64,000 nucleotides of DNA. Source: Natronosalvus caseinilyticus. GTDB taxonomy: Archaea; Halobacteriota; Halobacteria; Halobacteriales; Natrialbaceae. How positions within the stretch are numbered: position 1 is the stretch's first letter; the number at the start of each line of letters is the position of its first letter. Below, piece by piece: positions 36,066-40,316 of the stretch. The stretch is from positions 1,674,001 through 1,738,000 of the forward strand of contig NZ_CP071596.1 in assembly GCF_017357105.1 (NCBI RefSeq), read 5' to 3'. The notes under the pieces are model-generated. The model was not told the DNA's origin and did no database searches. It worked only from the letters and a program-made list of their open reading frames with translations. The translations under genes were made by a program, and so were the position numbers.

Positions 36066-36518
36066 ATAAGTGCGAAGGAAGCGGGGACGGAGGAGCCAAT
36101 CACGATCCTGCTGGTCGAACCGAACCCGGGGGATACGCGACTCTTCACGGAATCACTGCACGAGGCGAAACTCGCGAATCGTCTGTACACGGTGACTAAC
36201 GGCGAAGACGCGCTCGACTTTCTCCACGGACGTGGGGAGTACGAATCGAACGCCTGTCCGGACCTCGTCTTGCTCGAGCCACAGCTACCGGGGAAAAGCG
36301 GGATGGAAATCCTCTCGGAACTGAACGACGAGCCGGCGCTCGCCGAGATTCCGGTCGTCGTCCTCACGGGGTCGGACGCCGAAGAGGACATCGTCAAGTC
36401 CCAGGACGTCGACGCGGACCACTACATCCAGAAACCGGTTACCCCGGACGACTTCTTCCAGTTCGTCCGATCGATCGAGGACTTCTGGTTCGCGATCGTG
36501 CAGGAACCGACCAGCTAG
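36066..36518 (+). CDS. Stand-alone Rcp1-like response-regulator receiver; Glu replaces phosphoacceptor Asp; apparent ATA start
   Basis: 150 residues in the open frame from 36066. The full receiver fold is readable: ITILLVEPNPGDTRLFTESL (strand 1), then NGEDALDFLHGRGEY, LVLLEPQLPGKSG, VVLTGSDAEEDI and YIQKPVTPDDFFQFV. Lys123 and Thr101 of the active site are kept. The phosphoacceptor Asp is Glu71, and the second acidic residue after strand 1 is Pro19. There is no ATG, GTG or TTG between the upstream stop (36027) and strand 1. The first ordinary start, GTG 36192, would delete strand 1 and helix 1. ATA 36066 sits where ATG is expected. It could be a real non-standard start, a sequencing error or a decaying gene. 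Confidence 0.7.
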   Translation: MSAKEAGTEEPITILLVEPNPGDTRLFTESLHEAKLANRLYTVTNGEDALDFLHGRGEYESNACPDLVLLEPQLPGKSGMEILSELNDEPALAEIPVVVLTGSDAEEDIVKSQDVDADHYIQKPVTPDDFFQFVRSIEDFWFAIVQEPTS

Positions 36519-36717: not shown

Positions 36718-37833
36718 ATGGTCGCCCAGAAACACAGTCGAGACGACAGGCCGTCCGCCGAGCGCGAGACCTCGAGGGGTGACGTCGGCCGTGATCCGGC
36801 GGCCGTCACCGTCGCCGAGGAAGGCGACGAGCCCAGGACGCTCCTGCCGGACGGCGGCGAAGTAGAGGCAGAGACAGACGGCTCTTCCGATTCCGACGAC
36901 GAAGACGCGAACGCCGAAAACGACGAGGACTCGAGTGACGCGGCGGACGAGTCCGAAAGCGCCGACGAAGCAACTGATGAGGGAGAACCCGACGACTCCG
37001 AGGATCAGGACGGTTCGGCTGACGACGGAGAATCAGAGAACGGTGACGGTGAAGGCGACGAAGCGGACGAGGGTGACGACGAGAGCGAGGAAGAGGAAGA
37101 AACAGAAGACGAGAGCGAGGAAGAGGAAGAAACAGAAGACGAGAGCGAGGAACCCGGCGAAGAACACGACCGCGACGCCGAGGAGGTCTACGAGAGCGAG
37201 GACGCCACCGGCGTCGCCCACCTCGACCTGGACGGCCTCTTTCTTGACGTCCTCGGTCTCGAGGTGAACCTGAACGAAGTGACCCTCGACGTCTCGGCCC
37301 GACCGGGCGACAACAATCTGCTCGGTAACCTGTTATCGTCGGTGACCGGCCTCCTCGATGGGCTGGGGTCGCCGCTCGAGAGTATCTCGAACGCACTCGG
37401 GAAGATCCCAGGCGGGCTCAAGAGCGCCGCGACCGGTCTCCTCGGCGGATTGCGGGACCGGCTCGGCGGACTCCTGCCCGGGATCAGTTCGGGCGAGGGC
37501 GACGGTGACGAGGAAGCCGAAGAAGCCGAAGAAGCCGAGGAAAGCGAGGGCGGCATCCTCTCCTCGATCGCCGACTGGTTCCGCGGACTAGGCCGTTCGA
37601 TCGTCGACACCCTTCGCAACCCGCTCGAGCGAGCCGTCTCCTCGCTGCCGATCGAGCAGGTGCTCGCGACGATCGTCCGGTCGGTCCTCGAGCAGGTGAT
37701 CGAACGGATGGAAGCCGCGTCGGAAGGTGACGGCGACGAGGGCGCCGAGGAATCGGATAGTGAAGAGGAGAGTCCGGATCAGGACCAAGATCAGGACCAG
37801 GAGCAAGACCAGGAAGCGGAGGCTACTGCATGA
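36718..37833 (+). CDS. Acidic protein A: disordered Asp/Glu/Ser region plus LLGN-type hydrophobic block
   Basis: 371 residues, unrecognised as a whole. Residues about 1-40 are mixed and 41-155 are an Asp/Glu/Ser-rich, presumably disordered segment with a perfect DESEEEEETE repeat. Residues about 165-255 are a hydrophobic, Gly-rich block: LDLDGLFLDVLGLEVNLNEV, then ARPGDNNLLGNLLSSVTGLLDGL and more amphipathic Gly/Leu helices. An amphipathic helical segment (IADWFRGLGRSIVDTLRNPL) follows, and the tail is Asp/Gln/Glu. No signal peptide is seen. The stop overlaps the start of the next gene (ATGA), so the two are co-translated. ATG 36718 has a TATA-like TGTATAT upstream. Function is unknown; association with a membrane, granule or protein shell is only a guess. 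Confidence 0.75.
   Translation: MVAQKHSRDDRPSAERETSRGDVGRDPAAVTVAEEGDEPRTLLPDGGEVEAETDGSSDSDDEDANAENDEDSSDAADESESADEATDEGEPDDSEDQDGSADDGESENGDGEGDEADEGDDESEEEEETEDESEEEEETEDESEEPGEEHDRDAEEVYESEDATGVAHLDLDGLFLDVLGLEVNLNEVTLDVSARPGDNNLLGNLLSSVTGLLDGLGSPLESISNALGKIPGGLKSAATGLLGGLRDRLGGLLPGISSGEGDGDEEAEEAEEAEESEGGILSSIADWFRGLGRSIVDTLRNPLERAVSSLPIEQVLATIVRSVLEQVIERMEAASEGDGDEGAEESDSEEESPDQDQDQDQEQDQEAEATA
37078..37152 (+). repeat. Perfect 30-bp tandem repeat (2.5 copies) in acidic gene A
   Basis: Two identical 30-base units and half of a third encode DESEEEEETE twice and DESEE once (residues 121-145). The identity at all codon positions shows recent duplication; the length is a multiple of three and keeps the frame. 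Confidence 0.95.
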
Positions 37834-38306
37834 CCGACGACACACTGACCCAACGCGTCGACGTGGACGAGATCATCGACGGCATCGACTTCGAATCGCT
37901 GCTCGAGGGCACCTCGCTCGAGGACGAGTTCGACTCGGAGGAACCGATCGGGCCCGAGTTAGGCGGTCTCATCGGTGCGACGGTCGGCCGGACGGTCGGC
38001 AAGGAGGTCGGTCGATTGCTCGGTGACGTCCTCGTGGATTCGATCCTCGAGAGCGACGAGGAGGAATCCGAGGAGACGGACGACGGTGACGAGTCAGCGG
38101 AGGACGAGGCGGCCGACGATGAGAACGGCCAAGACGATGACGAAGGCGGCGAGTCAGACGAGGACAGTGAGGACGGAGAAGACAGCGAAAGTAGCGAAGA
38201 CAGCGAGGAGGGCGAGTCAGACGAGGACAGTGAGGGCGGCGAGAGTAACGAGGATAGCGAAGACAACGAGGACGCTGACGACACTGACGAAAATGACGAG
38301 TCGTGA
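37830..38306 (+). CDS. Acidic protein B: period-4 glycine zipper with acidic tail
   Basis: 158 residues, unrecognised. Residues 1-40 (DEIIDGIDFESLLEGTSLEDEF) precede a glycine zipper with Gly at 41, 45, 49, 53, 57, 61 and 65, exactly every fourth residue, interleaved with Val, Leu, Arg and Lys. From residue 75 to the end it is almost only Asp, Glu, Ser, Gly and Asn in short EDSE/DEDSE repeats, certainly disordered. It overlaps gene A by four bases (translational coupling). The N-terminal half resembles protein C (38412), so they are paralogs. The zipper could pack helices against each other or insert in a membrane; neither is shown. Confidence 0.75.
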   Translation: MTDDTLTQRVDVDEIIDGIDFESLLEGTSLEDEFDSEEPIGPELGGLIGATVGRTVGKEVGRLLGDVLVDSILESDEEESEETDDGDESAEDEAADDENGQDDDEGGESDEDSEDGEDSESSEDSEEGESDEDSEGGESNEDSEDNEDADDTDENDES

Positions 38307-38411
38307 CGCCCCTTCCGCGCTCGACGGACGACTCGAGGGTAACTGCCACTCGAGGCGGATCGACGAAAGAAGCGCCTCGATCGTCGTCGCGCCACCCACG
38401 GAGGGATCTGA

Positions 38412-39083
38412 ATGAGCGACGATCCCTCACTGCAAGAAATCGTCGTCGAGGAAGCCCTCGAGTACGTCGACATCGAGTCCGTCCTCAACGGGGACGGCAT
38501 CGGCGACGAGGTCGAGGCCGGCGAAATCGGCGCCGCCGCCGGCGCCCGAATCGGCGAGCGGTTCGGTCGCTCGATCGGCGAACGCCTCGGCAGAGCGATC
38601 CAGGAGACGGCCACCGACGCGATGGAGGAGGGCCTGAGCCTTCGGACGTTCCTCGAGGAACTCGTCGTGTCGCTCCGGAACGCGATTGCCGCCTGGCTCG
38701 AGGAGTTCGGCCAGGAGGGGTTGGCCGAGCGGGTCGCCGCCAGCGAAGCGGTAGGCGAAGCAGAAGATGCGGACGAAGCCGGTGACGAAACCGGGGAGGC
38801 CGACGCAGGTGAGGGTGACGAGACCGATACGGACGAAGAAAGCGAAAGCGAGAGTGAGAGCGAGACCGAGACCGAGACGGACACCGAAGCGATCGTCGAG
38901 AACGGTCCACCTTCCCTCGACACGCTCGAGGACCTGCGCCGGGAGACCCTCGAGGACGTCCTGGAGATGCTCTCCTATCGGGACCTCCAGTCGGTCGCGA
39001 AGGACGTCGGCGTGAAGGCGAACCTCAAAGGCGATGAGATGCGCGAACAGATCGTCGACGCCGTGATCGACGAGGAGTCCTGA
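38412..39083 (+). CDS. Acidic protein C: glycine zipper plus SAP/Rho-N-like C-terminal domain
   Basis: 223 residues, unrecognised overall. The first half aligns with protein B: EEALEYVDIESVLNGDGIGDEV, then Gly at 40, 44, 48, 52, 56 and 60. A helical stretch (LSLRTFLEELVVSLRNAIAAWLEEFG) and an acidic linker with a Ser-Glu run follow. The last 45 residues (LRRETLEDVLEMLSYRDLQSVAKDVGVKANLKGDEMREQIVDAV) have the pattern of SAP or Rho-N helix-extension-helix nucleic-acid-binding domains. That gives the only functional hint in the group. A ribosome-binding GGAGG lies about seven bases before the ATG, so it is translated from within the operon mRNA. Confidence 0.75.
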   Translation: MSDDPSLQEIVVEEALEYVDIESVLNGDGIGDEVEAGEIGAAAGARIGERFGRSIGERLGRAIQETATDAMEEGLSLRTFLEELVVSLRNAIAAWLEEFGQEGLAERVAASEAVGEAEDADEAGDETGEADAGEGDETDTDEESESESESETETETDTEAIVENGPPSLDTLEDLRRETLEDVLEMLSYRDLQSVAKDVGVKANLKGDEMREQIVDAVIDEES

Positions 39084-39113
39084 TTAGCACGACCAGCGCG
39101 GTGAGTTCCACCT

Positions 39114-40316
39114 ATGACTACAGAAACGGACGACCGAATCACGACACTGTTGACCGACGCTCGAGCGGCACTCGACGACCTCGGTATCCGCGAGGCGGGG
39201 GACGAAAGCGATGCGGACGATGAGGCCGGCGGTGACGACGGTGACGAGGCCCGAGCGCTCGAACTGACGGCCGACCTCGAAAGCGGCGCCCAGGACGGCC
39301 TTCCGGAGCCGATTTCGTCTACCGACCTGCCGTCGCTCGCGGCGGAAGCACACGAACTCGTCGAGGAGGGCGACGTCCAGTCGCTGCTCGAGCGCGTCGG
39401 CCTGGATACCCTTCCCGACGGCTCCACCCCGTCGTCGCTTCCGGAGGCGATTGCGAACGGCGATCCCGGCCAGGTCGCCACGCTGCGGGCCCTCCAGCGG
39501 TTAGCTTCGCTCGCGGATCCCGAATCAGATTCAGATACAGATACAAATTCCGACCTGGCCGACGCGGACTCGCTCGAGGAGACGGTGCTGGATCTGTACG
39601 GCCTCCTCGAGAAGAGCGGCGCGGTCGAGACGGGTGACGAGGAGGCCAGCGAGGCCGACACCGATGCGAGCGCGGATGCCGAGGAACCCGGCGAGGAGGG
39701 GGGTGAAGCGGCTGTAGACGAGACGGACGAGGACGAGTCGGACGAGGATGAGATGGACAAGGAGAAGGGCGAAGACGAGATTGACGATGAGGGCGAAGCG
39801 GACCAGAAGGACGAAGACGAGACGGACGAGAGCGAGGAATCCACGTCGGAGTCCGATAGCGAACCAGCGGAAGCCACCGACGAGACTGACAGCGACGAAA
39901 CTGACGAGGCCGACGAAACGGACGGCGACGGCGACCTCGAGGACTCCATTTCGTCCGCCCTCAAGGATGCAGTCGGCGGGTTTGGTGATGAAGTCGAATC
40001 TCTCAAAGCGGGGCTCGAGGCGGCGGGTCTCGGTGACGACGAGGAGGCCGATGCCGAGGACGAAGCAGATCCTGTGGACGAGGAGGCGAATGGAGACGAA
40101 ACCGACGAGGAGGACGGCGATGAAGGAGACGGGGCTGACGACGACGAAGACGAAGACGACGGCCTTCTGAGCACCGGAGACGACGGCGGCCCCTTCGGCG
40201 ACTCGAGCAGCGGCCGCAGGCGCGGGACGATGTACTCGACCGTCGCCCGCTCGCCGTCGAAACGGGCGGACATGAAGGCGACGACCCGTCACTCGACGAT
40301 GCCGAAACGAAACTGA
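39114..40316 (+). CDS. Acidic protein D: large disordered acidic protein with a basic C-terminal tag
   Basis: 400 residues, unrecognised. Residues about 60-140 look structured (SLAAEAHELVEEGDVQSLLE, VGLDTLPDGSTPSSLPEAIA, VATLRALQRLASLADP). A helical piece with VLDLYGLLEKSG follows, then more than 100 residues that are mostly Asp, Glu, Thr and Ser, a short helix (ISSALKDAVGGFGDEVESLK), and a second acidic run. The last 34 residues switch to strongly basic: GRRRGTMYST, RSPSKRADM, TRHSTMPKRN. No other protein in the window has such a tail, which may be a binding or targeting tag. It is 30 bases after gene C, in the same direction. Confidence 0.75.
   Translation: MTTETDDRITTLLTDARAALDDLGIREAGDESDADDEAGGDDGDEARALELTADLESGAQDGLPEPISSTDLPSLAAEAHELVEEGDVQSLLERVGLDTLPDGSTPSSLPEAIANGDPGQVATLRALQRLASLADPESDSDTDTNSDLADADSLEETVLDLYGLLEKSGAVETGDEEASEADTDASADAEEPGEEGGEAAVDETDEDESDEDEMDKEKGEDEIDDEGEADQKDEDETDESEESTSESDSEPAEATDETDSDETDEADETDGDGDLEDSISSALKDAVGGFGDEVESLKAGLEAAGLGDDEEADAEDEADPVDEEANGDETDEEDGDEGDGADDDEDEDDGLLSTGDDGGPFGDSSSGRRRGTMYSTVARSPSKRADMKATTRHSTMPKRN

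Follow-up and report, generated by a model that had tools for sequence, protein, structure and literature searches.

What could be the task of four consecutive genes whose ultra-acidic products match no Pfam or NCBIfam family above cut-off, and which had for that reason appeared unassigned? The genes, here called A, B, C and D, lie on the forward strand of a 64-kb stretch of the Natronosalvus caseinilyticus genome (contig NZ_CP071596.1, positions 1,674,001 to 1,738,000), which as a whole is referred to below as the window. An initial annotation of this DNA did not recognise the set and suggested assembly on a surface such as a membrane, granule or nucleoid, together with a nucleic-acid-binding partner. 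We propose that the A-D cassette is very probably associated with the gas-vesicle (gvp) system and that, taken as a whole, it somewhat more probably than otherwise forms an accessory coat or assembly module of haloarchaeal gas vesicles without GvpC and GvpD/E.

Association of the cassette with gas-vesicle genes

In a sample of 293 haloarchaeal genomes, in which gvp was scored by PF00741 (gvpA/J/M), the conserved core of protein A was found in 100 genomes and PF00741 in 122, with both present in 98. Gas-vesicle genes therefore accompany A in 98 of 100 cases, as would be expected of a gas-vesicle accessory set, compared with 24 of the 193 genomes without A (Fisher p ~1e-51, uncorrected for phylogeny). 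The two genomes with A and without gvp (G043 and G120) represent poor-quality or broken copies. Within the window's own family, the Natrialbaceae, all 54 genomes with A are gvp-positive, and six of the nine without A have no gvp.

Physical linkage places the cassette in the same set. Gene maps were drawn for 41 loci and show four kinds of arrangement. The full A-B-C-D cassette abuts gvp in the first (L047 and L050 of the window's own genus, G048 and G197), whereas in the second A and a B-like gene are inserted between gvpH and gvpI (Halocatena, family f6); on the Halocatena salina plasmid this takes the form of one tightly packed run, gvpH-A-B-like-GvpI-gvpJ. In the third arrangement A/B/C stand beside gvpO-gvpA (families f14 and f12, Halalkalicoccus and one metagenome-assembled genome), and in the fourth A/C lie beyond gvpM (family f6). 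Where the cassette is found beside or inside a gas-vesicle cluster, as in Halalkalicoccus paucihalophilus, Halocatena and the metagenome-assembled genome, Pfam identifies its neighbours as GvpH, GvpO and GvpA-type proteins. Outside the window's own family, at least 19 of 43 genomes have A no more than 10 kb from a gvpA/J/M gene, and linkage to gvp thus recurs in several lineages.

Exclusion of GvpC and GvpD

Multiple halo-type GvpC repeats were detected in eight genomes of the sample, all of them gvp-positive and all without A (Fisher p ~8e-7, or 4e-5 outside the window's own family, with shared ancestry ignored in both). This mutual exclusion persists within families f4, f5 and f12 and within one genus (g52). 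Three more genomes gave one marginal GvpC repeat match each, and the 32-33 residue repeats were found in no genome with A bar one marginal single-repeat match; the window's genome has none, and Halo_GVPC (PF05465) matched none of A, B, C or D. True GvpD (E below 1e-70) follows GvpC, being present in seven of the eight GvpC-repeat genomes, nowhere else in the sample and in no genome with A.

Vac regions without gvpC and gvpDE have been described in Natrialba, Natrinema, Halopiger, Haladaptatus and Natronobacterium, where vesicles are not visible for unknown reasons (PMC4390858). The vac clusters of Natrialba magadii and Haloterrigena turkmenica are reported to hold a long-form GvpI and one additional gene, and the available sections of the account of the Natrialba magadii cluster make no mention of a separate A-B-C-D cassette (PMC3403918).

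Protein D and the GvpI family

The question of whether any member of the set belongs to a known family is answered by D. A profile of D matched that of the proteins at the gvpI position (19 distinct sequences) with an hhalign probability of 99.4% (E 5.5e-21, 241 columns), against about 1% or less for the controls, namely A, B, C and ten other Gvp families. The tail of D alone matched the GvpI tail with a probability of 97.1% (E 6.2e-11). This tail is basic, as the initial annotation had it, with 10 K/R and one D/E in the last 34 residues, and resembles the HSTMP...HSTVP tail of Halobacterium GvpI. D shares with GvpI the basic tail (STMP...STVP) and a series of helical segments in collinear order. 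D differs from canonical GvpI in forming a clade of its own (support 0.82), in standing beside A-B-C and in missing the final IYGxRF block; the terminal [IL]YGxR block is absent from the cassette D proteins examined and present in the gvpI-position proteins collected, and for this reason D is classed as a GvpI paralogue and not as GvpI itself. Halobacterium GvpI, at 144 aa, is also much shorter and has no counterpart of the N-terminal part of D.

Both proteins can reside in one genome, as they do in L047, L050, G048, G197 and Haladaptatus halobius. The window's genome also has both, with D following A-B-C and the canonical GvpI lying between gvpH and gvpJ. Judged from these profile comparisons, D is a diverged second GvpI, homologous over its whole length. 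Together with the linkage to gvp, this accounts for the previously unrecognised cluster through a known family. In Halobacterium, GvpI binds GvpH, GvpL, GvpF and GvpC, and its loss leads to extremely long vesicles (PMC7688916; PMC9501494), which makes these four proteins the natural candidate partners of D.

Conservation of the four genes as a set

All 32 own-family neighbourhoods that were fetched hold A-B-C-D in the same order and on the same strand, and a 33rd locus, from outside the family (G051), carries a partial cassette. The N-terminal part of C was found in 34 of 61 genomes (60 relatives searched), 33 of them of the window's own family, usually with a copy of B adjacent. As metG, the response regulator gene and a spermidine-synthase-like gene flank the cassette only within the genus, the cassette moves as a unit. 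When 84,980 species genomes were scanned for the A core, 67 loci were returned, all haloarchaeal judging by record title and mostly from Natrialbaceae; the others include Haladaptatus, Halocatena, Haloarcula, Halogranum, Halogeometricum, Halegenticoccus and Halalkalicoccus. Beyond Natrialbaceae, A-B-C-D or a shortened form of it is retained at most loci. The expectation that the four genes stay together is therefore borne out across the window's own family and other haloarchaeal families, and homologues scattered singly were not seen. Two actinobacterial gvp clusters held no convincing homologues. In Haladaptatus (L098, L117 and L118) a D/GvpI-like gene on the opposite strand is followed by a zipper-SAP protein of ~103-108 aa and then by A and a B-like gene, the whole sitting between prf1-like and ileS-like genes.

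The extreme acidity of the set was likewise upheld: D+E fractions of 0.34, 0.45, 0.30 and 0.36 for A to D are the four highest among the 53 genes called in the window, whose median is 0.18. Haloarchaeal proteomes are acidic in general (the window's proteins have a median pI, or isoelectric point, of 4.4) and low-complexity D/E runs align easily, so that A-D might be ordinary acidic proteins with no common function. This explanation is almost certainly wrong, being already contradicted by the order conserved in every own-family cassette fetched and by invariant, non-acidic cores that extend over several families and that, with profiles, were the basis of matching. Genes of relatives were called with a home-made caller, and as the low-complexity arms make full-length alignments rough, our conclusions rest on the ordered cores.

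The ordered cores of A, B and C

The core of A has 19 invariant columns across 21 relatives. A GvpA-like hairpin (LLGLEVNLN against LVGIEILT) was considered for it and rejected, with a profile comparison of 0.5%; against the GvpA/J/M shell proteins (PF00741-type) hhalign gave 0.5-1.2%, which speaks for no homology, and no other Gvp profile compared was matched. A sequence search of the PDB returned a designed coiled coil and a kinase fragment, both judged spurious. LLGNLLC-like motifs are known from secreted bacterial proteins. The core was not found in viral sequences of IMG/VR, and tblastn in PLSDB gave no plasmid-borne copies in other organisms, a search of low sensitivity for so short a core, given that it missed the known Haladaptatus plasmid copies.

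B and C both contain period-4 glycine zippers, as initially described. The longest G-x3 run of B, with seven glycines, was reached by none of 20000 shuffles, and that of C, with six, by two of 20000; a comparison of the B and C profiles at 97.7-98% identifies the two as paralogues. The SAP/Rho-N-like end proposed for C also finds some support: of 20 relatives, 12 match Pfam Rho_N in this region at E up to 0.1 (best 1.6e-4) and three match SAP (best 2.1e-4). The resemblance to SAP/Rho_N proteins lies in these profiles and in the expected helix-loop-helix layout of the AlphaFold model, in which three helices of the SAP-like end are predicted confidently, at a pLDDT (predicted local distance difference test) of 91-97, and the remainder more weakly. 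Unlike those proteins, however, the end gives weak matches, and the window's own C, taken alone, gives no Rho_N or SAP match. Compared with PDB folds, the domain model matched nothing significantly, with SAP/Rho proteins among the weak matches. The C-type SAP-like domain is present in 99 genomes of the sample, nearly the same set as those with A.

The upstream element and a possible regulatory role

In 49 Natrialbaceae loci, 16-30 nt of the DNA upstream of A form a conserved element with the family consensus TCGCAyACGCAAGGcnAAnnaCCACAACGC. It reaches ~2 bits at most core positions, compared with ~0.1 in the flank, and the start codon of A lies 53 nt downstream of the start of the element in 27 of the 49 loci. 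It is single-copy in the window's genome, with one forward match. The idea that it is a motif common to gvp promoters was rejected, as it is absent upstream of gvp genes in the loci examined. No typical TATA box was noticed among the sequences read upstream of A, and an Rfam scan of the window gave no match.

So strongly conserved and cassette-specific an element suggests dedicated control, and the SAP/Rho_N-like end of C would allow a part in regulation or in tethering to nucleic acid, given that GvpD/E are missing as well. A-D could then be a regulatory module in which C, as a nucleic-acid-binding protein, would join A, B and D in controlling gvp expression or the timing of assembly, replacing GvpD/GvpE and not GvpC, which would fit the lack of true GvpD in every genome with A. 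We consider this unlikely, since the element was not found ahead of gvp genes in the loci examined, A, B and D have no recognisable DNA-binding fold, A and B stand amid structural and accessory genes in the gvpH-A-B-gvpI-gvpJ run, and some B- and C-like copies with no SAP end occur at loci of this type.

A model for the cassette in GvpC-less gas vesicles

We propose a model for the cassette that most reasonably fits these observations. A GvpI-like adaptor, an unrelated hydrophobic-core protein and two zipper proteins, brought together in genomes without GvpC, suggest an alternative coat or assembly complex. D, having retained the GvpI tail repeats, would act as the GvpI-type adaptor, while the small hydrophobic core of A would dock on the growing shell or on an accessory complex. 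B and C may self-associate through their glycine-zipper helices. The long D/E/S-rich arms would keep the assembly soluble and provide a hydrated acidic coat, which would suit a surface at high salt, and the joint job of the complex would be the one that GvpC performs elsewhere. Finally, the SAP-like end of C may tether the complex to nucleic acid or lend it a role in regulation. A, B and C would accordingly be gas-vesicle accessory families, for which we found no earlier name.

The likeness between GvpC, the usual outer coat protein of gas vesicles, and the cassette is confined to this proposed role and to the presence of the cassette in gvp-positive genomes without GvpC; four proteins stand in place of one, and they bear no sequence relation to it. 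A specific mechanism of GvpC replacement is put forward tentatively, as possible rather than probable. Three ideas of the earlier interpretation agree with the findings: that the set is conserved, that it assembles on some surface or particle, and that one partner resembles a nucleic-acid-binding protein. Nothing was found in favour of membrane or nucleoid locations, and the shell of the gas vesicle, or a complex that assembles it, has better support as the surface.

Several observations weigh against the model. In most of the window's own family the cassette is far from gvp, and the window's genome is one such case, with the cassette at 1.71 Mb, gvpA-N-O at 3.66 Mb (L125, 3.65-3.67 Mb) and, ~128 kb from the latter, gvpF-G-H-I-J-K-L-M at 3.78 Mb (L126, 3.78-3.80 Mb). 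Sixteen gvp-positive genomes lack both A and clear GvpC repeats, which makes the module dispensable, and in one gvp-positive genome (G265, L151) B, C and D are present and the A core is undetected. One genome (G022, L141, C1 3026000-3045000) holds a full cassette, with a gvpJ-like remnant as the sole trace of gvp genes found and gvpA undetected. The SAP-like domain occurs in five gvp-negative genomes; members of families f9 and f11 (L166/L167/L168, corresponding to G044/G046/G059, and also G071 and G082) have one to three C-type SAP-like proteins and no gvp. The AlphaFold model of A, with a mean pLDDT of 65.7, is of low confidence and was left unused. Furthermore, the named species of the group are described as Vac-, which leaves a role in vesicles unproven.

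The distance from gvp in most of the family, the cassette retained beside a gvp remnant and the SAP proteins of gvp-negative genomes could together indicate a separate particle or condensate, unrelated to gas vesicles, that recruited a GvpI copy and tracks gvp through shared ecology. This is quite improbable in view of the cassettes embedded directly in the gvp operons of several families and of the joint absence of cassette and gvp within the window's own family.

The accessory coat or assembly module that we prefer would bear on many species, as roughly one in three of the haloarchaeal genomes sampled, and most of those with gvp, carry the A core. If it is correct, a large part of haloarchaeal gas-vesicle biology rests on proteins without a family name, and the cassette may help to explain the poorly understood vesicle systems that lack GvpC. 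Cloning a GvpC/GvpDE-less cluster without the unlinked A-B-C-D operon would miss parts of the system, and the cassette opens the question of the Vac- species to direct test. Those who engineer gas vesicles as acoustic reporters could likewise take an interest in new proteins of coat or assembly. A bolder extension, which we regard as rather doubtful, is that there are two classes of haloarchaeal gas vesicle: one with GvpC and GvpD/E, as in Halobacterium, and a more widespread one in which GvpC gives way to a coat of A-B-C-D built around a second GvpI. Species currently recorded as lacking vesicles would then perhaps form vesicles that differ in shape, are strengthened or are tethered to DNA.

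Features of the locus

The co-directional layout first described for A-B-C-D proved exact on recheck in its coordinates, lengths, four-base A/B overlap (ATGA) and gaps of 105 bp (B-C) and 30 bp (C-D). The A/B overlap is also found in 24 of 33 relatives. All features are collected in Table 1.

Table 1. Positions in the window of the four genes, their ordered parts and the upstream element
Feature	Position	Strand	Remarks
Cis element conserved ahead of A, core GCACACGCAAGGCCAA	36660..36682	+	conserved in 49 Natrialbaceae loci
Gene A, encoding an acidic protein that has an LLGN core and helices at the C terminus	36718..37833	+	371 aa; first position in all own-family cassettes fetched
A core, VYESEDATGVAHLDLDGLFLDVLGLEVNLNEVTLDVSARPGDNNLLGNLLSSVTGLLDG	37186..37362	+	best-conserved part of A
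Gene B, glycine zipper and acidic tail	37830..38306	+	158 aa; 44.9% D+E
B glycine zipper	37950..38024	+	seven glycines at period 4
Gene C, glycine zipper, acidic linker and SAP/Rho_N-like end	38412..39083	+	223 aa
C glycine zipper	38529..38591	+	six glycines at period 4; paralogous to that of B
SAP/Rho_N-like domain, C-terminal in C	38913..39080	+	Rho_N/SAP profile matches in relatives; AlphaFold helices
Gene D, GvpI paralogue by profile comparison	39114..40316	+	400 aa; profile-profile match, separate clade
Basic tail of D, two ST(M/V)-type repeats	40212..40313	+	GvpI-like, without the final IYGxRF block

The response regulator gene at window positions 36192-36518, called from a GTG, is probably longer, since the frame upstream is open, shows no clear start codon and codes for the N-terminal portion of the receiver domain, absent from the gene as called.

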